A stretch of DNA of 41,802 bases from Bacteroidetes bacterium GWA2_32_17 (GTDB lineage Bacteria > Bacteroidota > Bacteroidia > Bacteroidales > GWA2-32-17), in assembly GCA_001769035.1 (NCBI GenBank), contig MENF01000150.1:74848-116649 (forward strand). Direction: 5' to 3'. Numbering within the stretch: the stretch's first letter is position 1; the number at the start of each line of letters is the position of its first letter. Positions 7,810-27,654 of this stretch are shown here, in pieces. Under the pieces are notes generated by a model. It did no database searches, had not been told where the DNA came from, and was given only the letters and a program-made list of their open reading frames with translations. A program made the position numbers and the translations under genes.

Positions 7810-8355
7810 TTACTCTTTTTCAACTTGCATAAAACTTAGTTCAAGTGGGGTTTTTCTTCCGAAAATTTTAACCATTACTTTAAGTTTCTTTTTTTCTTCG
7901 TTAACTTCTTCAATAATTCCAGTAAATCCATTAAAAGGTCCGTCAATTACTTTAACGGCTTCTGTAACTAAAAAAGGGCTGTTAATTTCCTCATCGCTTT
8001 CAGCTAATTCATCAACTTTACCAAGTATCCTATTAACCTCTGATAATTTTAAAGGGATAGGATTACCTTCTTTAGTTCTAAGAAATCCTAACACACCTGT
8101 AACATTTTTTATTCTAATTGCGATTTCTTCTGTTAATGAAGCTTCAATTAAAATATATCCTGGGAAAAAACTACGTTCTTTACTAATTTTTTTTCCATTT
8201 CTTATTTGGTAAACTTTTTCGGTTGGCACAAGAATTTGGGAAACAAATTCCTGAAAATTAAGGCGGTTTACTTCAGCTTCAATGTATTCCTTAATTTTCT
8301 TTTCTTTGCCGCTAATAGCTTTAACTACGTACCAATGTCTCTCAATTTCTGCCAT
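7810..8355 (-). CDS. nusG: Transcription termination/antitermination factor NusG
   Basis: The 181-residue protein binds the RNA polymerase clamp and links it to Rho or the leading ribosome. The NGN domain starts with RHWYVVKAISGKEKKIKEYIE and contains KKISKERSFFPGYILIEA (the family's PGYxxV motif) and the VTGVLGFLRTKEG strand. The C-terminal KOW domain is VKVIDGPFNGFTGIIEEVNEEKKKLKVMVKIFGRKTPLEL. It follows secE by 24 nt, the near-universal secE-nusG pairing. Confidence 0.98.
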   Translation of the reverse strand: MAEIERHWYVVKAISGKEKKIKEYIEAEVNRLNFQEFVSQILVPTEKVYQIRNGKKISKERSFFPGYILIEASLTEEIAIRIKNVTGVLGFLRTKEGNPIPLKLSEVNRILGKVDELAESDEEINSPFLVTEAVKVIDGPFNGFTGIIEEVNEEKKKLKVMVKIFGRKTPLELSFMQVEKE

Positions 8356-8379
8356 GCTTTTCTCTATAACTTAATATTA

Positions 8380-8571
8380 TTAGAACATACTATAAATTAA
8401 CTTCATTATGTTACTGAAACCGAAGTCCATTAATGAAACGATGAGTGCTATAATAAAGGAAGCAATCATTACAACTATTGCACTTGATTGAAGGTCTTTC
8501 CAGGTAGGCCATGTAACCTTTTGGGTAAGCTCCAAATAAGTATCTTGCAAATATAACTTTATTTTATTCAT
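8380..8571 (-). CDS. secE: Preprotein translocase subunit SecE
   Basis: The 63-residue single-span protein clamps SecY in the membrane. It has the amphipathic lead YLQDTYLELTQKVTWPTWKDLQSSAIVV (family motif KVTWPT) and one membrane helix, VVMIASFIIALIVSLMDFGF. The open frame extends 21 codons upstream into the tRNA-Trp gene, but the family begins MNKIKLYLQDTY, so the ATG at 8571 is chosen. It lies 13 nt after the tRNA-Trp gene in transcription order. Confidence 0.96.
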   Translation of the reverse strand: MNKIKLYLQDTYLELTQKVTWPTWKDLQSSAIVVMIASFIIALIVSLMDFGFSNIMKLIYSMF

Positions 8572-8584
8572 TTTAATACAATTG

Positions 8585-8657
8585 CACGGGTGGAGAGACT
8601 CGAACTCCCAGCCTATAGTTTTGGAGACTACCACTCTACCAATTGAGCTACACCCGT
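8585..8657 (-). tRNA. tRNA-Trp (CCA)
   Basis: This is a 73-nt cloverleaf. The acceptor stem is ACGGGTG/CACCCGT with discriminator G. The anticodon stem GTAGT/ACTAT encloses the loop CTCCAAA, giving anticodon CCA. The T arm is GGGAG-TTCGAGT-CTCTC. The 3' CCA is not encoded. It lies between tuf and secE, a position common in Bacteroidota and many other bacteria. Confidence 0.97.
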
Positions 8658-8699
8658 GTTTTGGGTTTCAGGTTTGAACCTCAAACCTCAAACCAAATA

Positions 8700-9887
8700 T
8701 TATTCAACAATATCAATTACCTGACCAGCGCCTACTGTTCTACCACCTTCACGGATAGCAAAACGCAAACCTTTATTAATTGCAACTGGATAAATTAAAT
8801 CAACTTGAATGGTGATGTTATCACCAGGCATAATCATCTCAACACCTTCTGGAAGAATAACTTCACCTGTTATATCCATAGTACGGATATAAAATTGTGG
8901 GCGATAATGATTATGGAATGGGGTATGACGACCACCTTCTTCTTTTTTAAGAATATAAACTTCTGCTTTAAATTTAGTATGAGGAGTAATAGAACCTGGT
9001 TTAGATATAACCATTCCTCTTTTTATTTCGTTTTTATCAACTCCGCGTAATAATAGACCAACATTATCACCAGATTCACCTCTATCAAGAATTTTGCGGA
9101 ACATTTCAACACCGGTAACTACAGTTTTTCTTTTCTCTAATGTAATTCCAACTATTTCCATTTCGTCGCCGGTATTAACAACGCCAGTTTCTACTCTACC
9201 AGTTGCAACTGTACCACGACCAGTAATTGAGAATACATCTTCAACAGGTAGTAAGAATGGTTTTTCGTTTTCACGTGGAGGAATTGGGATATAAGCGTCA
9301 ACTGCATCCATTAACTCCATTATTTTACCAACCCATTTTGGATCACCATTTAAGCCTCCAAGTGCAGAGCCACGAATAACAGGACATTTATCGCCATCAT
9401 ATTTATAAAAATTCAATAATTCGCGTACTTCCATTTCAACAAGGTCAAGCATTTCTTCATCTTCAACCAAATCAACTTTACTAATAAAAACTAATATTTT
9501 GGGAACATTAACCTGACGAGCTAAAAGCACGTGTTCTCTTGTTTGTGGCATAGGACCATCGGTAGCAGCAACTACTAATATTGCACCATCCATTTGGGCT
9601 GCACCTGTAACCATATTTTTAATATAGTCGGCATGTCCAGGACAATCAATATGTGCATAATGACGCGTAGCGGTTTGATACTCGATATGGGCGGTATTAA
9701 TTGTTATACCTCTTGCTTTTTCTTCGGGAGCATTATCAATTGATTCGAATGAACGAAACTCAGAAAGTCCTTTTTCGTGAAGAACTTTTGTAATTGCAGC
9801 AGTTAATGTAGTTTTTCCATGATCGATATGACCAATTGTACCAACATTAACGTGGGCTTTACTTCTATCAAATTTTTCTTTTGCCAT
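8700..9887 (-). CDS. tuf: Elongation factor Tu
   Basis: The 395-residue GTPase delivers aminoacyl-tRNA to the ribosome. Motifs: G1 GHIDHGKTT (residues 19-27), G2 RGITINTAH (59-67), G3 DCPGH (81-85), and G5 near [10 protein letters not shown]. The G4 motif, almost always NKxD, reads SKVD at residues 136-139; the codons att-agt-aaa-gtt-gat are unambiguous. Domains 2 and 3 ([27 protein letters not shown]... and ...[16 protein letters not shown]) are complete. It is transcribed with the four upstream tRNAs and the tRNA-Trp/secE/nusG block downstream, as in the E. coli tufB operon. Confidence 0.98.
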
Positions 9888-9945
9888 AAATTGAAATTTT
9901 TGTTGAATATACTATTTTTAATTAAACGATTTTTAAACTATATAG

Positions 9946-10017
<72 letters not shown>

Positions 10018-10024
10018 AAACCAG

Positions 10025-10097
10025 AGCGGGAAACGAGACTCGGACTCGCGACCCTCAGCGTGGAAGGCTGATGCTCTACCAACTGAGCTATTCCCGC
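10025..10097 (-). tRNA. tRNA-Gly (TCC)
   Basis: This is a 73-nt cloverleaf with acceptor GCGGGAA/TTCCCGC and anticodon stem TCAGC/GCTGA around the loop CTTCCAC, giving anticodon TCC. It is third in the Thr-Tyr-Gly-Thr cluster, with a 7-nt gap to the next tRNA. Confidence 0.97.
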
Positions 10098-10104
10098 TGG
10101 TTAG

Positions 10105-10187
10105 TGGAGAGAGCAGGATTCGAACCTACGAAGACGTACGTCAGCAGATTTACAGTCTGCCCCAGTTGGCCACTTTGGTATCTCTCC
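10105..10187 (-). tRNA. tRNA-Tyr (GTA)
   Basis: This is an 83-nt cloverleaf with acceptor GGAGAGA/TCTCTCC, discriminator A, anticodon stem CAGAC/(A)TCTG around TGTAAAT (anticodon GTA), and the long variable arm expected for bacterial tRNA-Tyr. Confidence 0.96.
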
Positions 10188-10206
10188 AGTAAACCACGAT
10201 GTACAG

Positions 10207-10280
10207 AGCCGATGGAGGGATTCGAACCCCCGACCCGCTGATTACAAATCAGCTGCTCTGGCCAACTGAGCTACATCGGC
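10207..10280 (-). tRNA. tRNA-Thr (TGT)
   Basis: This is a 74-nt cloverleaf with a perfect acceptor GCCGATG/CATCGGC and anticodon stem GCTGA/TCAGC around TTTGTAA, giving anticodon TGT. It is the first gene of the tRNA-tuf operon, about 36 nt after the predicted transcription start. Confidence 0.97.
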
Positions 10281-10323
10281 AACTCAAAGAACGTTTTTTT
10301 CTTTTTTTTAAAAAATCAGACCG

Positions 10324-10354
10324 CAAATGTACTAACAATTTTTTAATACACAAA
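10324..10354 (-). promoter_or_regulatory. Promoter of the tRNA-tuf operon
   Basis: On the minus strand a TTTG (-33 type box, 10351-10354) is followed after 19 nt by TACATTTG (10324-10331), matching the known Bacteroidota consensus TTTG-N(19 or so)-TAnnTTTG. Transcription would begin near 10316, just ahead of tRNA-Thr(TGT). Confidence 0.7.
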
Positions 10355-10401
10355 ATTTTTTTTATTTTTTTGTATAGTTTTTGTAGTAAATATGAAAATA
10401 A

Positions 10402-10437
10402 AAAATGCTGACGAAAAATATTTTTCGTCAGCATTTT
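10402..10437 (-). terminator. Terminator of hpf
   Basis: A perfect 36-nt palindrome (18-nt arms; core TGCTGACG/CGTCAGCA) begins 21 nt after the hpf stop in transcription order. On the minus strand it runs into a T-rich tail (10392-10405). It isolates hpf from the tRNA-tuf promoter just downstream. Confidence 0.8.
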
Positions 10438-10458
10438 AATTATAAGACAGTTACAAGA

Positions 10459-10758
10459 TTACTTACTGCTTCTTTTGTCTTTATATTTTTTTAATTGACG
10501 TTGTAAAGCTTCTACTGCTGTATCGGCAGCTTCTTCAAAAGTTTTTGATTGTTTTTTTGCAAACAAGTTATTTCCAGGCACTTCGAGTTTTATTTCGGCT
10601 ATTTTATTTTCATTTGTCTGTGCTTTATCAAGCCTGAGTGTTACTTCTGCTAAAACAATGTTTTGATGACGTGTAATTAGTTTATCCATTCTTTCGTGAA
10701 TAAATGATTCTAAATTTTTGTCAGCATTAAAATGTAAAGTTTGAATTTTTACTTTCAT
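10459..10758 (-). CDS. hpf: Ribosome hibernation promoting factor (short form, HPF/RaiA family)
   Basis: The 99-residue protein fits the short HPF/RaiA family, which binds the decoding region of idle 30S subunits in starvation. The start MKVKIQTLHFNADKNLESFIHERMDKL and the central AEIKLEVPGNNLFAKKQSKTFEEAADTAVEALQRQLKKYK follow the beta-alpha-beta-beta-beta-alpha fold. The C-terminal dimerisation domain of long HPF is absent, and the basic tail KKYKDKRSSK ends the protein. It lies between xerC and the tuf operon, with its own strong terminator. Its start carries a perfect Shine-Dalgarno sequence, unlike its neighbours. Confidence 0.93.
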   Translation of the reverse strand: MKVKIQTLHFNADKNLESFIHERMDKLITRHQNIVLAEVTLRLDKAQTNENKIAEIKLEVPGNNLFAKKQSKTFEEAADTAVEALQRQLKKYKDKRSSK

Positions 10759-10763
10759 AATTT

Positions 10764-10774
10764 TCCTCCTTTTT
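10764..10774 (-). promoter_or_regulatory. Strong Shine-Dalgarno sequence of hpf
   Basis: The minus strand reads AAAAAGGAGGA, with GGAGG ending 6 nt before the hpf ATG. This is a full-strength match to the 16S rRNA 3' end. The starts of rpoB, rplL, rplJ, rplA, nusG, tuf, rpsU, htpG, gltX and both kinases have only A/T-rich leaders, as expected where the ribosome hides its anti-Shine-Dalgarno. Confidence 0.85.
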
Positions 10775-10870
10775 AATTAAAATTGTTTATTATTTATTGT
10801 CATTCAGTTTTTTACAATGAGTTACTATTGTTTGATTATAGTTTTTTTGATTTTTTTATTTTATAATTGT

Positions 10871-11752
10871 TTATGCTCTTGGATGTGTTTTTTTATAAAT
10901 ATTTCTAAGTTTTTCAAACGAATTATGTGTATATACCTGAGTAGCAGCTAAATTTGCATGACCAAGCAGTTCTTTTATTGCATTCAAATCGGCTCCATTA
11001 TTTAACAGGTGTGTAGCAAAAGTGTGTCTTAAAACGTGTGGACTCTTTTTTTCGACTGTAGCAACCATGCCGATATAATGGGTTACAATTCTATACACAA
11101 GTTTTGGATAAAAAGAAAGTCCTTTTTCGGTAACAAACACATTATTAGTTTTTGAATTTACTTTTGCTCTTTCAATAATATATTGTTTTAATTCAATTTT
11201 TAATTGATTACCGAATGGAATTATTCTTTCTTTATTTCTTTTTCCTAATACTTTAATAGAGTTTTCGTAAAAATCGATATCTTCAATTTTTAATGAAATT
11301 AATTCAGATAATCTAATTCCAGTACCATAAAGCAAAGTTATTACTAATTTATTTCGCAATCCAATAAAACCATTACCAAAGTCAATATTTGTTGTTAAAT
11401 TTAACATTTGTTTTTCTTCAATAAATATTGGTAATCTTTTTTTGTTTTTGGGAGGAATTATCTTTTCGGTAGGATTAAACTTTACAATTTTTTCACGAAT
11501 TAAAAATTTATAAAATGTATTTAACGATGAAAGCTTACGGTTTACCGAGCGGGCTTCTATTGAGTTTTCCATTAAACTAACTATCCAGCTTCTTACGTGT
11601 CGGAAGCTTGCGTTTTTTAATTCTATGCGAGCAAAATTTTTAATTAAAAACTCCGAAAATTGACTAATATCATTAAAATAAGCCAAAACAGTATTTGATG
11701 AATACCGTTTTTCATTTTTTATGTAACCAACAAAGTGAGTGATTAAATCCAT
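10871..11752 (-). CDS. xerC: Tyrosine recombinase XerC-like (chromosome dimer resolution)
   Basis: The 293-residue integrase-family recombinase has an N-terminal SAM-like DNA-binding domain (about 1-90) and a catalytic domain with the complete active site: R147 (GTGIRLSEL), K171, H239 and R242 (SPHVLRHTFATH), H265 (LGHANLAATQ) and nucleophile Y274 (VYTH). Length and motifs match housekeeping XerC/XerD, which resolve chromosome dimers at dif with FtsK, rather than a phage integrase; C versus D cannot be decided with certainty. The rpsU-xerC-hpf-tRNA-tuf order supports a core gene. Confidence 0.92.
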   Translation of the reverse strand: MDLITHFVGYIKNEKRYSSNTVLAYFNDISQFSEFLIKNFARIELKNASFRHVRSWIVSLMENSIEARSVNRKLSSLNTFYKFLIREKIVKFNPTEKIIPPKNKKRLPIFIEEKQMLNLTTNIDFGNGFIGLRNKLVITLLYGTGIRLSELISLKIEDIDFYENSIKVLGKRNKERIIPFGNQLKIELKQYIIERAKVNSKTNNVFVTEKGLSFYPKLVYRIVTHYIGMVATVEKKSPHVLRHTFATHLLNNGADLNAIKELLGHANLAATQVYTHNSFEKLRNIYKKTHPRA

Positions 11753-11836
11753 TTATAACGAAGGAGTTTATATACTTATTTAAACGAAAAATAAAATTAA
11801 TAGTTTCGTAAAAATAATAAATCTCCGAAATAAATT

Positions 11837-12031
11837 TTATTTTTCTTCTGTTTGATGAAGTTTCTGAACGTAAATAGCATTTAAAACTTCTTTTCTACGA
11901 CGAATAGACGGTTTTTGAAAAGCTTTTCGTGCACGAAGTTCTTTCATAATACCTGTTTTTTCAAATTTGCGTTTGAATTTTTTTAAAGCCCTGTCAATGT
12001 GTTCGCCTTCTTTTACTGGAATAATAATCAT
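11837..12031 (-). CDS. rpsU: 30S ribosomal protein S21 (bS21)
   Basis: The 64-residue basic protein binds the 30S platform near the 3' end of 16S rRNA. It starts MIIIPVKEGEHIDRALKKFKRKFEKTGIMKELRARKAF, the family N-terminus; an upstream in-frame ATG at 12064 adds 11 residues but overlaps the promoter, so 12031 is chosen. In Bacteroidota bS21 (with bS18 and bS6) is known to occlude the anti-Shine-Dalgarno. In several of them rpsU itself has a strong Shine-Dalgarno for feedback, but here its leader (cttaattaataaaagatat) has none. Confidence 0.95.
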   Translation of the reverse strand: MIIIPVKEGEHIDRALKKFKRKFEKTGIMKELRARKAFQKPSIRRRKEVLNAIYVQKLHQTEEK

Positions 12032-12053
12032 ATATCTTTTATTAATTAAGGTG

Positions 12054-12083
12054 CAAATGTACAAAATATTTTAATTCAGCAAA
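12054..12083 (-). promoter_or_regulatory. Promoter of rpsU
   Basis: On the minus strand TTTG (12080-12083) is followed after 18 nt by TACATTTG (12054-12061), the same -7 box as the tRNA-tuf promoter. A start near 12047 would give a leader of about 16 nt before the chosen rpsU ATG, and it argues against the longer reading frame. Confidence 0.65.
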
Positions 12084-12127
12084 TACAATTTCAAATATTA
12101 TTAATAATATTTTCAGTTATTAATTCA

Positions 12128-12160
12128 AATTAATAAAAAAAGCTCCAAAGGAGCTTTTAA
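12128..12160 (-). terminator. Terminator downstream of the SprB-like gene
   Basis: A 9-10 bp stem (AAAAGCTCC / GGAGCTTTT with loop AAA; centre at 12148) reads on the minus strand into a run of seven T's. It follows the 12179-12375 repeat element and would end the transcript of the large surface-protein gene before rpsU begins. Confidence 0.75.
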
Positions 12161-12178
12161 TATTTTTTGTTATTTATG

Positions 12179-12375
12179 CGAATCAAGGGTTGAATTTTTT
12201 TCGTTCCGTTAGGAACGGCATATTGGTAGAAAAGATAATCATATATAAATCAATAGTTCCGTAGGAACGAAATATTTCAAATATATCATACCTACGCCAT
12301 TTATGTTGGTATGTGTTTTTTATTTCTACCAATATATTGTCCCTACGGGACTTTTAGATTTTAACCCTTAATTCG
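12179..12375. repeat. Nested-palindrome element downstream of the SprB-like gene
   Basis: Outer arms of 16 nt (12179-12194 and 12360-12375, two mismatches; core aatcaagggtt/aaccctta) enclose a second perfect 13-bp inverted repeat (atattggtagaaa at 12220-12232, tttctaccaatat at 12323-12335). They also enclose three small hairpins: 12202-12217 (cgttcc/ggaacg), 12256-12268 (gttcc/ggaac) and 12339-12351 (gtccc/gggac). No open reading frame is present. This layout resembles a MITE or a structured dispersed repeat; related gttccgtaggaac hairpins are, as I recall, common in Bacteroidota intergenic DNA. Confidence 0.75.
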
Positions 12376-12381
12376 TATTAT

Positions 12382-15300
12382 TTACCTTATTATAGATACA
12401 ACACCTGTAATCGGGTCTTTTTCGGGTCCAAGTTTAATAATATAGACATAAGAACCCATTGGCAAATCTTTACCTTTATATATACCGTTCCAGCGTCGGG
12501 TTGCATCGGTGTATTCCATTCCGGTTCCTTTAAATACATATAAAATGTCACCCCAGCGGTTATATATTTCTATCGAAACATCATTATAGCCGGCTATGCC
12601 CAATATTTCGAAATCATCATTTGTACCATCTTTGTTAGGAGTAATAACCGATGGAATTTTTAATTGTATGTCAATTGTAAATGTGTCAGTAATCTGGCAG
12701 GTATTTGCATCTGTAATAGTAATTACATATTCACCAGCTGGCAAATTAGTAACAACAAATGTGCTTGAAGTAGTTATGCTATCATTAAGCCAATGATAAG
12801 TAAAAGGGGAAATTCCACCACTTAAAACTGTAATATTTATATAACCCATATTAGTTGCATCTATTCCTGCAGTATCGGAAATATTCATTGAAGGAGGATT
12901 ATATAAAGTTGCAATTGCAGTAGTATCACAATAAAGTGAGTCGGTAATTGTAACTACATAACTTCCTGATGATAAACCTGTCGCAATTGAGTTAGTCTGA
13001 CCTCCATCCCATAAATAAGTATAAGGAGGATTACCACCATTTACATTTGTTATTTCAGCAGTACCATCAGAACCGTTTCCGCAAATTGGATTTGTTGACG
13101 ATAACGAGAATTGAATTGCAGTTGGCTGGTTTACAGTTGTTTGATTTGTTGCAGTACAATTATTCGCATCGGTAACGGTAACTGTGTAATTTCCTGCAGT
13201 TAAATTTGAAATTGTTGATGTAACTTGTCCACCAGTCCACAAATATGAATATGGACTTGTTCCATACGAAGCATTTACAACCGCCATACCATCATTTGAA
13301 CCAACACAGGAGATATTTTGTGAAGTTATGCTTGATGACAAAGCAGATGAAGGTCCGATAATAGTAATAGTTGTATCATCCCAACAATTATTATTGTCGT
13401 AGATTGTAACACTATAATTACCTGAAGATAAATTATTTACCGTTCCTGTAATTTGACCGCTACTCCAAACATAAGTGAAAGGAGCAGTTCCACCTTGCAT
13501 AAATACTGTAATAGAGCCATTAGAATCACCATAACATAATACATTTGTTAATTGAGTTACCTGAATTGTACCGGCAACAAGGTTATTTACTACGGCAGAA
13601 TAAACTGAACTACAGAAATTTGCATCTGTAACCGTAACTGTATATGTACCTGATGCTAAATTTATAATTGTGTCATTTGTTGAACTTGTTGACCAATTAA
13701 TTGCATAAGGTTGTGTTCCACCATTAATATTTATACTAACAGAACCATTACTTGCATTGCAATTTGCGCTAGTAACATTTCCAATAATTTGCAATTGAGT
13801 AGGAGCATTAATGTGAACTGTATCAACAGTAGAACATCCTTGGAAATCGGTAACTGTAACACTATATGTTCCAGCGCTAAGTCCAGTTGCAGTTTGAGTT
13901 ATTTGTCCGCTAGGAAACCAAGTATAACTATAAGGAGGAGTTCCACCATTAGGATTGGCAATTGCTTCACCGTTTGTACTATTATAACAACTTGCAGAAA
14001 TTGATTCAACAGCATTTAAGACAAGTTGAGTAGGTTGTGTAAAAAACCCATTAAATGTGCTAACACAGTTATTAACATCAGTAACAGTTAAAAATAATGC
14101 TCCCATTGATAAATTATTAAGAGTATTGGAATTTCCTAATGAATTTCCTAACGAATCTTGCCACAAATATAAATAAGGTGATGTTCCACCTAAAACCTGA
14201 ATTGTTAAACTTCCATCATTTCCACCATAACATGATATTTGAGTATTTGATGTCATTGATATTTGCATATTATCTGGTTCGGTTAGTGTAACAGACTGAA
14301 TTGATTCACATCCGTTTGCATCAGTTACCGTAACATTATATGCACCAGCAGCAACATTATAAATTGAATCAGTTACACTTCCATTTGACCAAACAAAGCT
14401 AAAAGGTGCAGTTCCACCTGTTGTTATATAAGCATGTGCAAAACCAGTAGAATCGCTATTGCAAAGGTTATTATTTACAACATCAAAAGCAATTGTTGCT
14501 GCATTAGTATTTGATATATCTCCGGAGAAAACTGATGTGCAACTATTTGAATCGGTAACAGTTACAAAGTAAGTGCCAGAAGGTAATGTGTTAACTGATG
14601 TTGTAGTATTATTTCCTGCTGCTGAATCCCACAAATAAGAGTAAGAAGGTGAACCACCACTTACACTAATTGAAATACTGCCATCGCTCATGCCACAGTT
14701 TGCAGGACTCGAGGTAAATGTTGAAGCAATAGGTGTTGGTTCATAAACAGTTACAGATTGAATTGTAGTACAGGAATTATTATCGGTAACAGTAACAGAA
14801 TAACTGCCTGCACCAACATTAGTTAAATCTTCAAAAGTACTGTTGTTGGTCCAAATATATATAAATGGGAAAGTACCACCGTTTGTAATAAGATTTACAT
14901 TACCTGTTGTACCACCATTACAAAGTACAGAGTCAACAACAAAACTAGTAGATAACAATTGTGGTTCTGTAATGTCAACAGAAGCTACAGAAGTACAACC
15001 ATTAACATCTGTTATTGTAACATAGTGAGTTCCTGCATTTAAACCAGATGCAGTAGGTTGAGAACCACCGGTTGACCAAGTATATTGATAAGGTGAAGTT
15101 CCTCCGATTGCAGAAACAGTTGCGGAACCATTACTTCCACCATTGCAACTAACATTCTGATTAACAGTCATTGTTGGATTTATAGCATCAATTTGTGTAA
15201 TAGTTGCAGAATTTGTTGAAGTACATCCGTGATTATCTGTAACAGTAATTGTATATGTTCCGGCTGATAATCCTGAATTTGTAGGAGTTAAAATTCCATT

Positions 15301-17736
15301 GGACCATAAGTATGTATAAGGTGAAGTTCCACCTGAAACTTGTGCAGTTGCCTGACCGGTAGAAGCACCAAAACAATATACATTTGTAATCGAAGGAATT
15401 GTTAACAAAATTGCAGATGGTTGAATTATTGTTGTATTTGTTACAGCAGTACAACCATTTGCATCTGTAACAGTAACATAGTATGTTCCTGATGGAATGT
15501 TTGTTATAGTAGGAGTAGAGCCACCACCAGTCCATAAATAAGTATAATTTACAGTACCACCTGAAGCAGAAACCGTAATTGAACCGTCGCTTCCGCTATT
15601 ACAACTAACATTTGTAGATGCTGTTATAACAGCAGATAAAGCAGATGGTTGACTTATTACTGTTGACGCAGTTGTTGTACAATTATGAGTATCAGTAACT
15701 GTTACTGAATAAGAACCTGCAGTTAAGCCCGAAGCTGTGGGAGTATTAGCACCATTAGTCCAGTAATAAGTATAACCTGGCGAACCACCTGTAGTGGATA
15801 CTGTTGCAGTTCCATTATTACCTCCGAAGCACGATGGGGTAGTAGTTCCTGTAATTGTTGCAGATAATATAGGGGGTTGTGAAATAATAACAGATGTGTT
15901 TGCCTGGCAGCCCATAGCATCGGTAACAGTAACGCTATATGTATTTGCAGTTACATTTGAAATACTTGTACCATTATTACCATTTGACCACAAATAAGTA
16001 TAGCCAGGCGTTCCACCAGAAGCAGAAATTGTAGCACTACCATTAGAACCGCCAAAACAATTTATATTTGTAGAAGATGTTACTGAAACTGAAGGAGCAC
16101 CAGTATTATTTACAGAAACTGTTGCAATGCTTGAGCAGTTATTTACATCGCGAACTGTTACAGTATAAGAACCAGCAGCAATATTTATAATTGTACTTGT
16201 GCTTCCTCCATTTGACCATGCATAAGTATAACCGGGTGTACCACCGGAAGCCGAAACAGTTGCAGAACCATTAGAATTACCACAAGTTGCATCAACTTTA
16301 CTCGTTGTTAAAGCAATAGCTGCAGGTTGGTTTACAGTTGCAGTTCGAACAATTGTACAACCTTTACTATCAGTAATTGTAACACTGTAAGTTCCAATAC
16401 TTAACCCTGTAGCAGGATTTGAAGTTTGTCCGCTCGGGAACCAGTAATAAGTATAACCAGGCGTACCACCAGAAGGACTCGCAGTAGCGGTTCCATTGCT
16501 ACCACCATTACAGCTTGTGTTTGTGGCAGATGCAGTACCTGCTAAAGCTGCTGAAGGTTGAGTAATTGTAGCAGTTTGAACACTTGAACAGTTATTTGCA
16601 TCACGAACTGTAACGGTATATGTTCCGGCAGATAAGTTAGTAGCTGTTGAGCCAGAGCCACCGCTTGGTGCCCATGTATAAGTATAACCGGGTGTTCCGC
16701 CAGAAGCTGAAACGGTTGCAGAACCAGTTGCTCCGCCGTAACAAGAAACATTTGTTTGACTTGAAATTGATGCAGACAAAGCGGAAGGAGCAGTAATAGT
16801 AATTGAGCCTGTAGTACTACAACTATGCGAGTCGTAAACAGTCACATAATAAGTTATTGCTGCTAAATTAGTTGCAGTTTGAGTATTTTGTCCATTTGAC
16901 CATGAATAAGAATAACCAGGAGTGCCTCCCGAAGGATTAGCAGTAGCCGTTCCGTTATTTGCACCTGCACAAGTAATATTTGTTTTAGAAATACTTACAG
17001 CCGGATTTGGATAAGAATTTACACTAATAGAAGCCGAACCAGTTGTACAACCAGTTGTACTTGTAACAGATACTGTATATGTTCCTGTTGTACTTGCAGT
17101 TATGGTTTGAGAAGTTGCACCTGTTGACCAATGATATGCAGAATAGCCGGTACCAGCATTCAAATTTACACTTCCCCCCTGACAAAAAGATGTTGGACCA
17201 CTTGGGGTTATACTTGGAAAAATAACATCGGGATTAACATAAGTAAAAACTAATTCTACTCTATTTATACAAACACTTGTACCTGTACATAATTGTAAAG
17301 AATTTGTTCCTCCATAAACATAGCCGGGCATACCGCAAGGATAATTATTTGAAGATACAGCAGCCACAGCACAAGGATCAGCATCACACCAACAACCAGT
17401 ATTCGCGTCGTTTACAGTTGGTACAGCATAACCGTTTATTGAACCAGCCATATAACTTCCAGCACAACCTCCTGAATAATAATTTACAGTAACATTTGTT
17501 ACTGTTTTTCCGGCAGGAACTGGGTCAAAAAATGTTTTAGTTAAACAACCAGCAGTTGCTCCACAATAACTAGGATTAGTATTAATGCACCAATAATCGC
17601 CACCACATAATAAACAACCGCCACATGCCATAAAACCTGTATAACTAACAGTTGCAGTAGCAGTTTGGGCAATACTTTGGCAAGAAAAAAACAATGAAAT
17701 TAAAACTGTAACAATTGTAAAATTTAACTTTTTCAT
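12382..17736 (-). CDS. Giant SprB-repeat surface protein with T9SS type-B sorting domain
   Basis: The 1784-residue protein has a signal peptide (about 1-24), then a Cys-rich module (13 cysteines within about residues 25-145). An Ig/PKD-like segment follows (FCQGGSVNLNAG...YHWSTG...GTYTVSVTS, about 180-240), then about 18 SprB-type repeats plus a last degenerate one. Each repeat is about 70-80 residues, running from a Cys (SCxGGxxGSATVSASGGTPGYTYxWS) to a second Cys (AGTYxVTVTDxNGCT). The end (IPSVITPNKDGTNDDFEILGI...IEIYNRWGDILYVF...GSYVYIIKL) is the gliding-motility-associated type-B sorting domain, so T9SS exports it. SprB of Flavobacterium johnsoniae is a motile gliding adhesin, but many SprB-repeat proteins occur in non-gliders, so adhesin is the safer reading. 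It stands alone, with a terminator downstream. Confidence 0.9.
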   Translation of the reverse strand: MKKLNFTIVTVLISLFFSCQSIAQTATATVSYTGFMACGGCLLCGGDYWCINTNPSYCGATAGCLTKTFFDPVPAGKTVTNVTVNYYSGGCAGSYMAGSINGYAVPTVNDANTGCWCDADPCAVAAVSSNNYPCGMPGYVYGGTNSLQLCTGTSVCINRVELVFTYVNPDVIFPSITPSGPTSFCQGGSVNLNAGTGYSAYHWSTGATSQTITASTTGTYTVSVTSTTGCTTGSASISVNSYPNPAVSISKTNITCAGANNGTATANPSGGTPGYSYSWSNGQNTQTATNLAAITYYVTVYDSHSCSTTGSITITAPSALSASISSQTNVSCYGGATGSATVSASGGTPGYTYTWAPSGGSGSTATNLSAGTYTVTVRDANNCSSVQTATITQPSAALAGTASATNTSCNGGSNGTATASPSGGTPGYTYYWFPSGQTSNPATGLSIGTYSVTITDSKGCTIVRTATVNQPAAIALTTSKVDATCGNSNGSATVSASGGTPGYTYAWSNGGSTSTIINIAAGSYTVTVRDVNNCSSIATVSVNNTGAPSVSVTSSTNINCFGGSNGSATISASGGTPGYTYLWSNGNNGTSISNVTANTYSVTVTDAMGCQANTSVIISQPPILSATITGTTTPSCFGGNNGTATVSTTGGSPGYTYYWTNGANTPTASGLTAGSYSVTVTDTHNCTTTASTVISQPSALSAVITASTNVSCNSGSDGSITVSASGGTVNYTYLWTGGGSTPTITNIPSGTYYVTVTDANGCTAVTNTTIIQPSAILLTIPSITNVYCFGASTGQATAQVSGGTSPYTYLWSNGILTPTNSGLSAGTYTITVTDNHGCTSTNSATITQIDAINPTMTVNQNVSCNGGSNGSATVSAIGGTSPYQYTWSTGGSQPTASGLNAGTHYVTITDVNGCTSVASVDITEPQLLSTSFVVDSVLCNGGTTGNVNLITNGGTFPFIYIWTNNSTFEDLTNVGAGSYSVTVTDNNSCTTIQSVTVYEPTPIASTFTSSPANCGMSDGSISISVSGGSPSYSYLWDSAAGNNTTTSVNTLPSGTYFVTVTDSNSCTSVFSGDISNTNAATIAFDVVNNNLCNSDSTGFAHAYITTGGTAPFSFVWSNGSVTDSIYNVAAGAYNVTVTDANGCESIQSVTLTEPDNMQISMTSNTQISCYGGNDGSLTIQVLGGTSPYLYLWQDSLGNSLGNSNTLNNLSMGALFLTVTDVNNCVSTFNGFFTQPTQLVLNAVESISASCYNSTNGEAIANPNGGTPPYSYTWFPSGQITQTATGLSAGTYSVTVTDFQGCSTVDTVHINAPTQLQIIGNVTSANCNASNGSVSININGGTQPYAINWSTSSTNDTIINLASGTYTVTVTDANFCSSVYSAVVNNLVAGTIQVTQLTNVLCYGDSNGSITVFMQGGTAPFTYVWSSGQITGTVNNLSSGNYSVTIYDNNNCWDDTTITIIGPSSALSSSITSQNISCVGSNDGMAVVNASYGTSPYSYLWTGGQVTSTISNLTAGNYTVTVTDANNCTATNQTTVNQPTAIQFSLSSTNPICGNGSDGTAEITNVNGGNPPYTYLWDGGQTNSIATGLSSGSYVVTITDSLYCDTTAIATLYNPPSMNISDTAGIDATNMGYINITVLSGGISPFTYHWLNDSITTSSTFVVTNLPAGEYVITITDANTCQITDTFTIDIQLKIPSVITPNKDGTNDDFEILGIAGYNDVSIEIYNRWGDILYVFKGTGMEYTDATRRWNGIYKGKDLPMGSYVYIIKLGPEKDPITGVVSIIR

Positions 17737-19392: not shown

Positions 19393-19917
19393 ATGGAAAT
19401 GTTATATCAAATTATATTAGTAATAGTTACAGGTGTAATTGTTTTTGCAACAGCATTTTATGTTTTAAAAACTTTTATCGAAAATGAAAACAAAAAACGT
19501 TTATTAGAGTTTAAATCTCAAAACATGAAACTTGTAACTCCAATAAAATTACAAGCTTATGAACGAATTATTTTGTTTCTTGAGAGAATTTCACCTAATT
19601 CGTTAATAGTTCGACTTCAGGTTTCGGGAATGAAAAGCCATCAACTTCATGTTGAAATGCTTAGTTTAATTCGTGCTGAATTTGAACACAATTTATCCCA
19701 ACAAATTTATATGTCGGATAGTGCGTGGGAAGTGGCTATAAGTGCAAAAGAAAATGTAATAAGGTTAATAAATATGACATCTGAAAGTGTTGATAATAAT
19801 GCTGATGCTATTGAATTGAGCAAAGCAATTATGGAACAATGGATAAAATTAAATCCAACACCTATTAAAACGGCTATTATTTTTATAAAAAATGAAGTTA
19901 ATACTTTTTTAAGTTAG
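19393..19917 (+). CDS. Small membrane-anchored protein, unknown function
   Basis: The 174-residue product has one N-terminal membrane helix (about residues 4-26, YQIILVIVTGVIVFATAFYVLKTF) followed by a charged, mostly helical soluble part. That part includes TPIKLQAYERIILFLERISPNSLIVRL and ends in a long helix with QWIKLNPTPIKTAIIFIKNEV. Proteins of this layout are, as I recall, conserved across Bacteroidota, but I know no assigned role. The gene is divergent from the aminotransferase and convergent with htpG, separated from htpG by three purine-loop hairpins. The start could also be the ATG at 19399. Confidence 0.75.
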   Translation: MEMLYQIILVIVTGVIVFATAFYVLKTFIENENKKRLLEFKSQNMKLVTPIKLQAYERIILFLERISPNSLIVRLQVSGMKSHQLHVEMLSLIRAEFEHNLSQQIYMSDSAWEVAISAKENVIRLINMTSESVDNNADAIELSKAIMEQWIKLNPTPIKTAIIFIKNEVNTFLS

Positions 19918-20060: not shown

Positions 20061-22109
20061 TTATTTTATTAGCTCAACACTACGTTTTACAAATTTATTA
20101 AGAGCTTCACCCTTTAATAAATTGTGCGACAAAAGAGCTAAATCAATTAACTGATTTACAATTTTATTATTTTTGCCAAATTCTTCTAAAACAGTTTTTT
20201 TCTCGCTTTCTATTTCATTTACTTTCTTAGTAAGTTCTTCTTTTTTAGCTTTATCGGCTGATAATATTTCTTCTTCTTTTTTTCCTTTTAATTTATCATC
20301 AAGTTTGGACTTATTTTGTTTTATTGGATCTAATTTCTCCGAAATTTCTTGTAATTGCTGGCTTAATTCTTTGTTTTTTTGTTTTGTTAATTTTTTTACC
20401 AAAGAATGATTTGCATTAACAATTAAATTGTAACTATCGGGTAAATCGCCATACATACCGTTTCCACCGCCCATTGCAGACATGTCTTTCATTCTCCGCA
20501 TATATTCGTTACGTGTTATAATAATAGGTGTGTCGTTATCGGATAGTGCTTCGAAAGAAATAAAAAACCTGTCTTTTTGAGGTAAAGCACCAAAGAAAAT
20601 ATTGCGAACTTCCATTTGCTCATCTTCGGTTAGCTCAACTTTTTTAACTTCTTCTTTCTCAATTAACTTGTCAATTATATCGGCATCAACACGTTTAAAA
20701 ATTGTATTTTTTAGCTTACTTTCTAAGCTATTAATAAAATGAGCATCAAGTTGTCCATTCATAAATAAAACATCGTAGCCCTTATTTTTTGCAGCATCAA
20801 TGTATGTATATTGTTCTTCTTTATTAGTTGAGTATAAATAAACCTTATTTTTATTTTTGTCGGTTTGATTTTCTTTAACAAGCTTTTCGTATTCCTCTAA
20901 TGTATAGCATTTTTCATCAACATTTTTTAACAGAACGAACTTTTCGGCTCTTTCATAGAATTTTTCATCTGTAATCATTCCGTATTGAATAAAAACTTTT
21001 AAGTCGTCCCACTTCTTTTCAAAATCGTTACGTTGATTTTTAAAAATATCCTGAAGTTTATCGGCAACTTTTTTTGTTATGTGCGACGATATTTTTTTAA
21101 CATTCGGGTCGCCCTGCAAATAACTTCTCGATACATTTAAGGGAATATCAGGAGAATCAATAACACCATGTAATAATGTTAAAAATTCCGGCACAATTCC
21201 TTCAACCTGGTCGGTTACAAAAACCTGATTGCAATATAATTGTATTTTGTTTTTCTGAATTTCTAAATTACTTTTAATTTTAGGGAAGTATAAAATTCCG
21301 GTAAGGTTGAACGGGTAATCAATATTCATGTGAATATTAAAAAGTGGTTCTTCGAATGTAGCAGGATAAAGTTCGTGATAAAAGGAATTGTAATCTTCGT
21401 CTTTTAATTCGGCAGGTTTTCGAATCCATAATGGTTTTGTGTTATTAATAACATGAACTTTACCAGTTTCGATATATTTACCATCTTTCCATTCTTTTTC
21501 TTTTCCAAAAGCAATTTCTACAGGCAAGAACTTACAATATTTATTTAACAGTTCGTTTATTTTCGACTCTTCTGAAAATTCTTTATTGTCGTCATCGAGA
21601 TATATTATAACATCAGTTCCAACATCAGACTTATCAATATCTTCTAATGTAAACTCGGGTGAACCATCGCAAGCCCATTTAACAGCTTTTGAATCTTCTT
21701 TATACGATAGCGTTATTAGCTCTACTTTTTTTGCTACCATAAACAGCGAATAAAAACCTAAGCCAAAATGACCAATAATTGATGCTGAGTCTTTAAATTT
21801 TTCTAAAAATTCGCCAGCTCCCGAAAAGGCAATTTGATTAATGTATTTATCAACTTCTTCGGCTGTCATTCCAACACCATGGTCGGATATTGTAAGAGTA
21901 TTTTTTTTACTATCAGCCGAAATGTTAATTTGAAGATTTTCTACATTGCCTTTATATTCGCCATGACTAGCAAGGGTTTTAAGTTTATTTACAGCATCTA
22001 TAGCATTAGAAACAGCTTCGCGTAAAAATATTTCATGTTCGGAATAAAGGAATTTTTTAATAATAGGAAAAATATTCTCGGTGGATACACCAATTGTACC
22101 TTTTTGCAT
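20061..22109 (-). CDS. htpG: Molecular chaperone HtpG (Hsp90)
   Basis: The 682-residue cytosolic ATP-dependent chaperone is somewhat longer than E. coli HtpG (624). The N-terminal GHKL ATPase is complete: FLREAVSNAIDAVNKL (catalytic Glu and Mg-binding Asn), SDHGVGM, and the lid GHFGLGFYSLFMVAKKV. The middle domain shows DIPLNVSRSYLQGDPNVKKI (with the conserved Arg contacting ATP), followed by the C-terminal dimerisation part. An extra charged coiled-coil-like stretch (about 590-650, rich in Lys and Glu: LQEISEKLDPIKQNKSKLDDKLKGKKEEE) accounts for the length. It is a single gene, with an inverted repeat in its leader. Confidence 0.97.
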   Translation of the reverse strand: MQKGTIGVSTENIFPIIKKFLYSEHEIFLREAVSNAIDAVNKLKTLASHGEYKGNVENLQINISADSKKNTLTISDHGVGMTAEEVDKYINQIAFSGAGEFLEKFKDSASIIGHFGLGFYSLFMVAKKVELITLSYKEDSKAVKWACDGSPEFTLEDIDKSDVGTDVIIYLDDDNKEFSEESKINELLNKYCKFLPVEIAFGKEKEWKDGKYIETGKVHVINNTKPLWIRKPAELKDEDYNSFYHELYPATFEEPLFNIHMNIDYPFNLTGILYFPKIKSNLEIQKNKIQLYCNQVFVTDQVEGIVPEFLTLLHGVIDSPDIPLNVSRSYLQGDPNVKKISSHITKKVADKLQDIFKNQRNDFEKKWDDLKVFIQYGMITDEKFYERAEKFVLLKNVDEKCYTLEEYEKLVKENQTDKNKNKVYLYSTNKEEQYTYIDAAKNKGYDVLFMNGQLDAHFINSLESKLKNTIFKRVDADIIDKLIEKEEVKKVELTEDEQMEVRNIFFGALPQKDRFFISFEALSDNDTPIIITRNEYMRRMKDMSAMGGGNGMYGDLPDSYNLIVNANHSLVKKLTKQKNKELSQQLQEISEKLDPIKQNKSKLDDKLKGKKEEEILSADKAKKEELTKKVNEIESEKKTVLEEFGKNNKIVNQLIDLALLSHNLLKGEALNKFVKRSVELIK

Positions 22110-22136
22110 AATTTTAATTTTTTAAAGTTAAACGTT

Positions 22137-22157
22137 GCACATTTTCAAACAATGTGC
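22137..22157. promoter_or_regulatory. Inverted repeat in the htpG leader
   Basis: A perfect 7-7-7 inverted repeat (gcacatt-N7-aatgtgc) lies 28-48 nt upstream of the htpG start. It could be a repressor site or an RNA hairpin. It is not the CIRCE sequence (TTAGCACTC-N9-GAGTGCTAA), so HrcA control is not suggested. Confidence 0.35.
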
Positions 22158-22200
22158 CATTGAAAAAAATATGACAATAAGGCAGAGCATAATAAATTTA

Positions 22201-22224
22201 ATGGTTCGTGAAGACACGAACCAT
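22201..22224. repeat. Single GTTCGTG-aaga-CACGAAC hairpin
   Basis: A perfect 10-bp stem (atggttcgtg / cacgaaccat) has the purine loop aaga. It is followed by ggcg, resembling the aaggcag that follows other copies. It lies between htpG and the receiver-protein gene and may end transcription of the latter. Confidence 0.8.
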
Positions 22225-22251
22225 GGCGTAAGGTTTATGGGTTGGGAAGAA

Positions 22252-22776
22252 TTAGTCAGTAAAAAAATATAAAATGCTAAATAAAATAACACAAGCAACA
22301 AGGGTAAAAAATATTATTTGTGTAATGTAGCTCTGGTTTTTGGTTATTTTTAATCGTTTTTCGCTAATAATAAATTTCACATTGTTATGAATTCTTAAAA
22401 ATGAATTTTCGTTTTTTCTAACAAAAGATACAGCACCACATTTAATAGCATTAGCTGCAACATCAACATCGTCAATACCTGAAAGCATAATAACTTCTAC
22501 ATCGGGGTTTATTTCACGAACTGTTTTTAAAATATCAATGCCATTTTTGGCTTGTGGGTTTTCAGAAGATTTTAACAAATAATCTAAAATAACAACATGA
22601 ATTTGTTTTTTATTAAATTTTCGTTTTACAAAATGCTCTAAAAACGATTCACCATTATTAAAGGAGTATATTTTATAACCGCCTGCTTGCTCAAACTTCG
22701 TTCTAAGTATTTTGTTAAGCAACTCATCATCATCTACAAGATAAATGTTAATATCTGATTCTTTGATTGTTACCAT
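22252..22776 (-). CDS. Lone response-regulator receiver with a C-terminal membrane anchor
   Basis: The 174-residue protein has a CheY-like receiver domain (about 8-135) with acidic pocket D15-D17 (YLVDDDELL), phosphoacceptor D65 (VVILDYLL), S99 in IMLSG and K121 (SFVRKNE). A short linker leads to a single hydrophobic helix, IIFFTLVACVILFSILYFF (about 153-172), at the very C-terminus. There is no output domain. The frame extends upstream to a TTG at 22809 inside a repeat, but the ATG at 22776 fits the receiver fold. Tail-anchored lone receivers are unusual; it may be a phosphate sink or a membrane-docked signalling subunit. No kinase is adjacent. Confidence 0.85.
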   Translation of the reverse strand: MVTIKESDINIYLVDDDELLNKILRTKFEQAGGYKIYSFNNGESFLEHFVKRKFNKKQIHVVILDYLLKSSENPQAKNGIDILKTVREINPDVEVIMLSGIDDVDVAANAIKCGAVSFVRKNENSFLRIHNNVKFIISEKRLKITKNQSYITQIIFFTLVACVILFSILYFFTD

Positions 22777-22799
22777 TGTGTTAATAAAAGAATTATGTT

Positions 22800-23376
22800 T
22801 ATTGTTCAAAAAAGTTCAAAAAGTTTATTGTTCTTTACGAAATACGAATTTTACGAATTTACGAATAAAATATTGTTTACTGTTCAAAAAAGTTTTCAGT
22901 TTCGAGTTTTTAGTTCATCGTTCATTATACTTAATACTTTGTACTTAATACCTTTGTTCGTTGTTCAAAAAAGTTCAAAAAGTTTATTGTTCTATGTTCA
23001 AAAATGTTCATTGTTCTACGTTCATTGTTTTTAGTTCGATGTTCGTTAATCAATATTCGATATTCTTTTTTATTCATTGTTCACTGTTCATTGTCATACA
23101 CTTGTCATACATAGTCATACTTTGTCAAACATTGTAACACAGTAGGAAAACAATTGTGTGACTATTGAATTAACTATTGTATGACCATTGTTTTTATTGT
23201 TCACTGTTCAAAAAAGTTCAAAAATGTTCATTGTTCTACGTTTATTGTTTACTGCCTACTGATTACTGCCTACTGCTTACTGTTTACCGTGTTTTTTTAC
23301 TTTGTACTTTATACTTTTTACTTTGTACTTTGTACTTTAGTACTTTGTACTTTGTACTTTATACTTTGTATTTTAT
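22800..23376. repeat. Long array of degenerate phrase repeats
   Basis: This gap of about 600 nt has no supportable gene and is almost wholly short repeated words. Examples are gttcaaaaaagttcaaaaag and attgttctatgttcaaaaatg (22800-23035, 23200-23240), a tgtcatacacttgtcatac stretch (23090-23160), actgcctactgattactgcc (23245-23290) and ttgtactttatacttt (23300-23370). Open frames across it merely translate the repeats (VQKSSKSLLF, YCLLITAYCLL). No hairpin terminator is clear. It lies in the leader of the receiver gene and after the Rel gene. Confidence 0.85.
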
Positions 23377-25635
23377 TTATTCAATATCTTCGGTTTGCTC
23401 TACTCTTTTAACAGAATTTATTCCTTTTATCTTTTTCAAATCTCGCATAAGTGCATCTAAATCAAATGTATCGTGAATGTATAAATCAATAAATCCTTCA
23501 AATACCCCATCATTTGCATTAAAATATACAGTTCGCATATTTACATCAAGTTCTTTTGAAATTAAATTAGTTAAATTATTTACAATACCTATATTATCTA
23601 TTCCATTAATTTCAATTCGAACTAAAAACGATAAAACTTTGTGTGTAGTCCATTTTACAGCAACAATTTTATCTCCAAAATTTGACATAATTTTTTGAGC
23701 ATTTGGGCACAATTTTTTGTGTATAATGACGCCATCATTTTCAGACAAATATCCGACAACGTCATCTCCGGGAATAGGGGCACAACATTTTGCAATTGTA
23801 TAATTATTTTGTTCAGCTTCATCGTTAATTACAAAAGGTTGTTTACGATTAATTTTTGCTTCTGTATGTTGTTGTGGAGTTTCGGATGAACGTTTTAAAA
23901 GAGGTAATTTTGATGTAGTTTTAGTAATTTGTAATCGCCAATATCTAATAAATTTATTTTTCGATTTTCTGTTTATTACTTTTCGAACATCATTTAAATC
24001 AATTTCTTGTGAACCAATTTTACAATAAATATCTTCTTTAGAAAAAACTTCGTATCCGAGCATTAACTTTTTAAACAAAACGCTGGTAATTGGAATTTCG
24101 AGTTCGGTAAATTTAGCTTCGAGCATTGTTTTACCTTTTTCGATATTATCTCTTCGTTCGCTTTTAAACTTTTCTTTAATACGTGATTTAGCTTTTGCAG
24201 TGGTAACAAAATTTAACCAATCTTTTTGTGGCTGACTTGTTTCGCTGGTTAATATTTCAACCTGGTCGCCACTTCTTAAAGTATGACTTAATGGCACAAG
24301 TTTGTGATTAACTTTTGCACCAATTGCCCTATCACCAATCTGGCTATGAATTTCATAAGCAAAGTCGAGAGCAGTACTATCTTTTGGCAATCGTTTTAAA
24401 GTACCTTTAGGAGTGAAAACAAAAATCTCTGACGAAAAAAGATTCATTTTAAACTCATCAATAAATTCTATTGCATTAGCATCGGGGTTTTCGAGAAGTT
24501 CTCTAATCTTTTTTATCCATTTATCAAGTTCGCTTTCGTCGTTACCTTCGCCTTTATATTTCCAATGTGCTGCATAGCCACGTTCAGCAATTTCGTCCAT
24601 TCTTTTTGAACGGATTTGTACTTCAACCCATTTACCATCGGGACCCATTACAGTTGTGTGTAAAGCTTCGTAGCCGTTTGCTTTTGGTGTACTAACCCAG
24701 TCGCGTAAGCGGTCAGGTTTTGGTTGATAAATATCTGTAACCTGCGAATAAATATTCCAGCATTGCGTTTTTTCGGATTGTTGCGAGTCGGGTTCAAAAA
24801 TAATTCTGATAGCAAAAATGTCATAAATTTCTTCGAATGGAACGCTTTTAACATGCATTTTGTTCCAGATTGAAAATATAGATTTTGGGCGACCTGTGAT
24901 GTTGTATTTAGCATCAATTTCGTTAAGTCTTTCAAGAATTGGTTCGCTAAATCTATTAATATAAATCTGGCGTTCTTTTTCGCTTTCGGTAAGTTTTTTC
25001 TTAATTTCGTCGAATACAGCTGGATGTTGATGTTTTAAACTTAAATCTTCGAGTTCGGTTTTAATAGAGTATAAACCTAAACGATGTGCAAGAGGTGCAT
25101 ATAAATATAATGTTTCGGCAGCAATTTTCATTTGCTTATATTCGGGCATTGAGTCGAGTGTTCGCATATTGTGTAACCTGTCGGCAAGCTTTATTAAAAT
25201 TACTCTAACATCATCGGAAAGTGTTAGCAGCATTTTTCTAAAATTTTCGGCTTGAAGTGAAGTGCTTCCCTGTTCAAAAACATTTGAAATTTTTGTTAAT
25301 CCATCAATTATTTGTGCAACTTTTTCGCCAAAAAGCAATTTAATGTCTTCAAGTGTATAATCAGTATCTTCTACAACATCGTGCAGTAATGCACAGATTA
25401 CTGATGTAGTTCCTAAACCAATTTCTTTAGCCGAAATTATTGCAACGCTAATAGGATGGTAAAAATATGGTTCACCTGAACGGCGTCGTGTTCCCTGATG
25501 AGCTTCGTTTGCCAAATCGAAAGCTTTGCGAACAAGTGCTTTATCTTCTTTAGATTTACAACGCGGACAACTTTTTAAAATAACGTTAAACTGCAATTCT
25601 AATGCTGCCTTTTCTTCATCGGTAAGTAACTTCAT
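23377..25635 (-). CDS. rel: Bifunctional (p)ppGpp synthetase/hydrolase (Rel/SpoT)
   Basis: The 752-residue enzyme makes and degrades the alarmone (p)ppGpp. The HD hydrolase domain is intact (YFYHPISVA, ALLHDVVEDT, LIKLADRLHNMRT), and so is the synthetase (GRPKSIFSIWNKM, YDIFAIRIIF, DWVSTPKANGYEALHTTVMGPDGKWVEVQIRS, ERGYAAHWKYKG). Then follow the TGS domain (IFVFTPKGTLKRLPKDSTALDFAYEIHSQIG), the Zn-finger-type segment (CCAPIPGDDVVGYLSENDGVIIHKKLCPN) and a C-terminal ACT domain. Both activities should be present. The frame extends to a TTG at 25650, but the ATG at 25635 is preferred, giving a leader of about 22 nt after a TATCTTTG box. Confidence 0.96.
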   Translation of the reverse strand: MKLLTDEEKAALELQFNVILKSCPRCKSKEDKALVRKAFDLANEAHQGTRRRSGEPYFYHPISVAIISAKEIGLGTTSVICALLHDVVEDTDYTLEDIKLLFGEKVAQIIDGLTKISNVFEQGSTSLQAENFRKMLLTLSDDVRVILIKLADRLHNMRTLDSMPEYKQMKIAAETLYLYAPLAHRLGLYSIKTELEDLSLKHQHPAVFDEIKKKLTESEKERQIYINRFSEPILERLNEIDAKYNITGRPKSIFSIWNKMHVKSVPFEEIYDIFAIRIIFEPDSQQSEKTQCWNIYSQVTDIYQPKPDRLRDWVSTPKANGYEALHTTVMGPDGKWVEVQIRSKRMDEIAERGYAAHWKYKGEGNDESELDKWIKKIRELLENPDANAIEFIDEFKMNLFSSEIFVFTPKGTLKRLPKDSTALDFAYEIHSQIGDRAIGAKVNHKLVPLSHTLRSGDQVEILTSETSQPQKDWLNFVTTAKAKSRIKEKFKSERRDNIEKGKTMLEAKFTELEIPITSVLFKKLMLGYEVFSKEDIYCKIGSQEIDLNDVRKVINRKSKNKFIRYWRLQITKTTSKLPLLKRSSETPQQHTEAKINRKQPFVINDEAEQNNYTIAKCCAPIPGDDVVGYLSENDGVIIHKKLCPNAQKIMSNFGDKIVAVKWTTHKVLSFLVRIEINGIDNIGIVNNLTNLISKELDVNMRTVYFNANDGVFEGFIDLYIHDTFDLDALMRDLKKIKGINSVKRVEQTEDIE

Positions 25636-25664
25636 TTTTTGCACAAACAATTTTTTCTATTTTG

Positions 25665-25672
25665 CAAAGATA
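25665..25672 (-). promoter_or_regulatory. Likely -7 box of the Rel gene
   Basis: The minus strand reads TATCTTTG, placing transcription start near 25658, about 22 nt before the ATG. A matching -33 TTTG is not evident. Similar octamers lie close to the starts of the M16 pair and further from the aminotransferase gene. Confidence 0.45.
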
Positions 25673-25689
25673 AGGAAAGTTAAATTAAA

Positions 25690-27643: not shown

Positions 27644-27654
27644 TGAAAAATGTT

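Follow-up and report, generated by a model that had tools for sequence, protein, structure and literature searches.

A conserved Shine-Dalgarno sequence precedes hpf in Bacteroidales and may serve ribosomes with an exposed anti-Shine-Dalgarno

The window, by which we mean the whole 41,802-nucleotide stretch of contig MENF01000150.1 from Bacteroidetes bacterium GWA2_32_17 that was analysed, carries, in the direction of transcription, rpsU, a xerC-like recombinase gene and hpf (Table 1). The hpf product is the short form of the hibernation factor without the C-terminal extension, its PF02482 domain spanning residues 3-96 of the 99. The leader reads ...TTAATTAAAAAGGAGGAAAATT-ATG, with the ATG at 10758-10756, and an A-rich extension of the Shine-Dalgarno (SD) core reaches 10774. 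In most of the relatives examined xerC is likewise the upstream neighbour of hpf. TAnnTTTG, which we take to be the promoter consensus, had no match in the 242 nt that precede hpf, and a search of window positions 8000-12500 against Rfam placed five tRNAs alone above the gathering score. The window bS21 has a tyrosine where that of Flavobacterium johnsoniae has Tyr54. We note that a 1784-aa ORF lies beside rpsU on the same strand (12382-17736), and that an intergenic element at 12200-12355 contains the inverted repeats CGTTCCGTTAGGAACG and ATATTGGTAGAA; four of the eight matches to its motif in 803 kb fall here.

Table 1. Features of the hpf locus (window coordinates).
Feature	Position	Strand	Details
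hpf, short ribosome hibernation promoting factor	10459..10758	-	99 aa; PF02482, 67.7 bits (cut-off 23.7)
SD core AAAGGAGG of hpf	10765..10772	-	6-nt spacer to ATG
Gap from xerC stop to hpf start	10759..10870	-	112 nt
xerC-like tyrosine recombinase	10871..11752	-	PF00589, 138 bits; PF02899
rpsU (bS21)	11837..12031	-	64 aa; PF01165, 63.8 bits; SD absent (-1.5)

A search for 16S in the window's genome found none, and the hpf leader was paired with the tail AACACCUCCUUUCU of relatives in the order, giving a predicted duplex of -12.2 kcal/mol (duplexfold; the strengths below are in the same unit). This tail, adopted after GGAACACCTCCTTTCT had been seen, underlies the hpf and rpsU values, the tree, the xerC-proximity counts, the 946-gene set and the greA counts, and an older tail, AUCACCUCCUUUCU, underlies the control-gene, window-ORF, 803-kb, own-genome distance-class and rpsR counts. 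Among the 26 window ORFs of at least 90 aa, hpf was the sole one below -7; the second best (19393-19917) reached -6.8 and the remaining 24 were at -3.3 or weaker. The first-pass annotation had described a well-spaced SD on hpf and none on rpsU, two genes away, and on both points it was right. Concealment of the SD by secondary structure was considered and rejected, as its mean unpaired probability of 0.62 in the window was unremarkable beside a median of 0.66 over 130 loci.

The further statement that the genome otherwise lacks SDs was too strong. In 803 kb of the 4.77-Mb genome, window included, 20 of 563 ORFs had an SD at or below -9 compared with 2 in a mock region 27-47 nt upstream; the counts were 11 and 0 at -11, and 8 (hpf included) and 0 at -12. 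The first ATG was taken as the start in such genome-wide counts, so some true starts are missed; starts of hpf, rpsU and the control genes were set by homology. The strength of the hpf SD is tied for third to sixth place among the 563. The genome of the window thus has a small class of SD-bearing genes with hpf near its top, and the hpf SD is well above chance in its own genome. Over the whole genome the pattern AAAGGAGGN{3,9}ATG had 21 matches against 16 for the reversed control, and AGGAGGN{3,10}ATG had 126 against 102; 11 of the 21 AAAGGAGG matches stand at gene starts judged plausible by eye, including those of hpf and rplT. In Bacteroides fragilis the first pattern had 72 matches against 37 for the control, and 16 of the 70 chromosomal matches passed a gene-start filter, among them hpf, rpsR and greA. 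Two other sets of leaders in the window's genome were observed in passing: rplT has a strong SD of -12.2 (L375-L376, G000:C165, about 20665-21015), and four successive genes (L368-L369, G000:C66, about 21617-27710) share a near-identical leader ending TGGAGGTAATAAA-ATG.

The hpf gene is present in 135 of 149 Bacteroidales genomes, of which 111 were covered: that of the window, the 30 best by HMM score, and then 20 and 60 further down the list, the other 24 coming mostly from its low-scoring end. An SD at or below -9 precedes hpf in 95 of the 111 (window included; median -12.0) and is absent in 16; by batch it was found in 1/1, 28/30, 15/20 and 51/60 respectively. In a set of 80 named loci that partly overlaps this census (L090, for example, is L027), 76 carry it, with a median of -13.4 and 54 at -13 or below, and in B. 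fragilis it reaches -13.6. Conservation of the motif in relatives, which the first-pass annotation had put forward for checking, is therefore borne out. The four named loci without it are three Muribaculaceae and one Porphyromonadaceae (L130, L160, L168 and L169); L130 and L169 also have 155-161 nt between xerC and hpf. Elsewhere in the class, 25 of the 68 hpf leaders from other orders have the SD. When its presence or absence is mapped on a tree of 178 loci, 18 changes are required, compared with a mean of 40.8 and a minimum of 35 after shuffling, and the trait follows the tree. A GGAG core is absent in 11 of 122 unique hpf leaders of the order, and in 109 of the 111 that have one the GGAGG register is found 4-8 nt ahead of the ATG. 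Base-shuffled leaders of the same composition reached -9 in 266 of 2440 cases, as against 111 of the 122 real ones, so that for leaders this rich in purines a cut-off of -9 is by itself not a stringent one.

The arrangement with xerC varies a good deal beneath this conserved signal. In SD-bearing loci of the order the xerC stop may fall as far as 17 nt beyond the hpf ATG or as much as 112 nt short of it, and the SD is retained whether the two genes are apart, overlap or form an in-frame fusion. In the fused loci (L027, identical with L090; L091; and L093) xerC runs without a stop into hpf and the SD motif encodes part of KKED; its reading frame differs in other species. Retention across the separate, overlapping and fused arrangements indicates that selection acts on the nucleotides. 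The fusions keep an internal SD and ATG (L090:9098-10294; also L027, L091 and L093), and chain 14 of PDB 9i5v, named RaiA and 401 residues long, has a XerC-HPF architecture like theirs; the long annotated XerC-HPF protein may therefore be a start-site artefact. Conservation, spacing and nucleotide-level retention together establish the hpf motif as a real, selected SD, and from its complementarity it probably pairs with the 16S 3' tail.

Neighbouring genes for the most part have no such signal. Twelve control families were low in the named loci and nine had practically no SD at or below -9, as for rpsU (0/67), tuf (0/47), secE (0/43), gltX (0/16) and rplK, rplA, rplL and rpoB (each 0/42); xerC had 2/78, and the exceptions were rplJ (4/42) and nusG, the highest (11/41). 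Among 946 other genes of these loci 35 reached -9 compared with 27 mock leaders, and 7 reached -12. SDs were found at rpsR in 20 of 30 Bacteroidales genomes and, taking the more favourable start, at greA in 9 of 29 loci, a thirtieth having yielded no start; across 22 matched genomes hpf had one in 21 and rpsR in 14. In the census rpsU reached -9 in 28 of 100 genomes, and it reached -13 in 3 of the 55 of the last batch and in none of 114 other starts of the order, named set included. The rpsU state requires 19 changes on the tree (shuffled mean 22.6, minimum 20), and in some loci of other orders rpsU reaches -17 to -21.7. In the account of McNutt et al. (2023; PMC9976891), no Bacteroidales meet the rpsU criteria used there, and rpsR and some other ribosomal genes are described as carrying SDs. 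We note that the Bacteroidales rpsU leaders L478, L484 and L505 reach -13.2, -16.5 and -14.6, and that five others (L483, L486, L489, L208 and L523) contain AGAAAGAGGTA, which complements the 16S tail imperfectly and scores -10.6.

The exact 16S end GGCTGGAACACCTCCTTTCT was found at 19 places in 15 of the 149 order genomes and had no match in the other 134, that of the window included, so that only some of the Bacteroidales have a documented anti-SD; a pattern search of this kind cannot reveal altered tails. A candidate 16S end, GGATCACCTCCTTT, occurs in seven genomes (G023, G046, G077, G095, G110, G131 and G137), none of them among the 15 with GGAACACC. Of 169 rpsU products (bS21) of the order, 168 have a tyrosine within residues 52-57, and the anti-SD pocket and its occlusion are therefore likely to be kept in Bacteroidales.

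We propose, tentatively, that hpf may well be favoured by 30S subunits whose anti-SD lies outside the pocket formed by bS21, bS18 and bS6, so that HPF output would track incomplete subunits. Prevotella bryantii, a member of the Bacteroidales, provides part of the case. Its reporters are described as giving no appreciable change in yield on addition or omission of an SD (PMC3155529). Together with the conserved bS21 tyrosine, this makes service to open-pocket subunits the most plausible role for the hpf SD. In F. johnsoniae the 16S tail is reported to be held by bS21, bS18 and bS6, and mutating or depleting bS21 increased the output of a tuf reporter carrying AGGAGGU by 40% to more than 2-fold (PMC9976891); by our measure an AGGAGGT leader (L448) scores about -11.6, near the hpf leader of the window. 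If replete Bacteroidia subunits hold the anti-SD in the pocket, SD pairing should help mainly those whose pocket is incomplete. Such subunits could be newly made, aged, or without bS21, bS18 or bS6; more of them would mean more hpf translation, and HPF would then park and protect them. The SD circuits that have been proposed for rpsU and rpsR would thereby gain a feed-forward branch whose output is a hibernation factor. Given the SDs on 20 of 563 genes in the window's genome, hpf would not respond alone.

A broader possibility, which we hold with more reserve, is an order-wide circuit in which anti-SD exposure on incomplete or ageing 30S subunits switches on HPF synthesis directly. If so, a specialised ribosome state, beyond a transcription factor alone, would trigger hibernation and protect the same subunits, and through the hpf SD dormancy and tolerance would be tied to how complete the ribosomes are. 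Bacteroidia keep an anti-SD and yet hide it; rpsU explains this in part, and in Bacteroidales rpsU is mostly without an SD. The hpf SD makes it possible to ask directly, in gut species that are tractable, whether specialised ribosomes serve beyond self-correction.

Coupling to xerC is the main rival. Here the SD would let ribosomes finishing xerC re-engage at the nearby hpf start on a shared transcript, giving high output. In 105 of the 111 order genomes xerC ends no more than 60 nt ahead of the hpf ATG or beyond it, and the SD is present in 92 of these 105 compared with 3 of the other 6 (p 0.038); with the named set added, for which proximity means the nearest upstream ORF of any kind or an in-frame fusion, the counts are 115/122 and 5/9 (p 0.003). 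The window's genome has SDs at or below -9 on 14 of 161 genes that start within 30 nt behind a same-strand gene, and on 0/63 at 31-100 nt, 5/213 beyond 100 nt, 0/108 divergent genes and 1/18 at sequence edges; this greater frequency close behind another gene fits coupling, and the SD is reported to affect coupling efficiency in prokaryotes (PMC12548453). However, the 946 other genes of the named loci show no such preference (11 of 225 in the class up to 30 nt, 7 mock), and of the 53 hpf genes of other orders that lie near an upstream gene, 32 lack the SD. Within Bacteroidales it persists across the 112 nt of the window and the 90-91 nt of L149, L157 and L212, as well as in the fusions that have no xerC stop. 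Coupling as the explanation of the motif is conceivable, but we are doubtful of it.

Another possibility, and a special case of translation by open-pocket subunits, is the one raised by the first-pass annotation: that loss of bS21 in particular turns on hpf and so ties S21 shortage to hibernation. Loss of bS21 frees the anti-SD in F. johnsoniae according to PMC9976891, and in the window the two genes are close neighbours, the SD being on hpf alone. A weak tendency is seen for rpsU to reach -6 more often where hpf lacks its SD (9/14 genomes) than where it has one (31/86; p 0.075), and a similar one at -5 (p 0.079). Against this, no link appears at rpsU cut-offs of -7 to -9, the survey of both genes that had been suggested found no correlation of strength between the two SDs (rho -0.04, p 0.69; 100 order genomes), and L085, L087, L249 and L250 carry one on each gene; a tree-based test of the pair, with 9 supported pairs and a median p of 1, had little power. 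Mutual exclusion of the two SDs is accordingly unsupported. The SD frequency at rpsR, which encodes bS18, also tells against a role peculiar to bS21, and would point to bS18 as the missing pocket protein at least as much as to bS21; a search for rpsR in the window's genome found none. What stands of the original proposal is that a freed anti-SD could plausibly favour hpf, as the tuf reporter suggests, and nothing in the data is specific to bS21. We consider the bS21-specific form unlikely.

It is distinctly unlikely that ordinary Bacteroidales ribosomes use the SD for strong constitutive translation of hpf. SDs on other transcription and translation genes (rpsR, greA and the rplT of the window's genome) would suit this explanation, as would the 2% of B. 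fragilis genes tabulated with an SD in PMC10783764, but the P. bryantii yields argue against it and tuf, rplL and rpoB have no SD. The data can hardly be explained by chance, by a relic of gene transfer or by a DNA motif with no role in translation, for although the whole-genome pattern counts were close to those of their reversed controls, the motif is conserved across the order and its spacing is fixed to the hpf ATG while its distance and frame relative to xerC vary.

Among the titles and openings of abstracts listed by literature searches none reports an SD at hpf, although Jha et al. (2021) may mention one; the main text of PMC9976891 does not mention hpf, raiA or yfiA, that of PMC7366714, on the B. 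thetaiotaomicron transcriptome, has no match to hibernation, raiA or rpsU, and no mention of an hpf SD was found in passages of PMC8710568 and PMC10783764. The window hpf is of the same family (PF02482) and length as the short, YhbH-type HPF. The gammaproteobacterial short HPF works with RMF, and we know of no comparable SD-gated control for it. A nearer likeness is the rpsR SD, which citing papers credit to Jha et al. (2021) and which occurs in Bacteroidales as well as in orders beyond them; it shares with that of hpf the order, the type of signal and a similar strength; rpsR, however, encodes a component of the pocket and hpf does not. The closest known circuit may be the rpsU autoregulation of F. 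johnsoniae (McNutt et al., 2023), in which a strong SD likewise stands out in an SD-poor genome, and both systems predict a response to subunits with a freed anti-SD. As the hpf product is a hibernation factor and not a pocket protein, this would not be autoregulation of the rpsU type. The hpf pairing is also weaker, at -12.2 in the window and a median of -13.4 in the named loci, than that of the strongest rpsU leaders of other orders; PMC9976891 gives a value below -13 for rpsU autoregulation, obtained with free_scan and a ranking of ribosomal protein genes only, whereas the window hpf value comes from a different program, duplexfold, and is not first among the 563 genes. The two systems appear to differ in distribution as well, the hpf SD being most frequent in Bacteroidales, the order in which rpsU is mostly without one.
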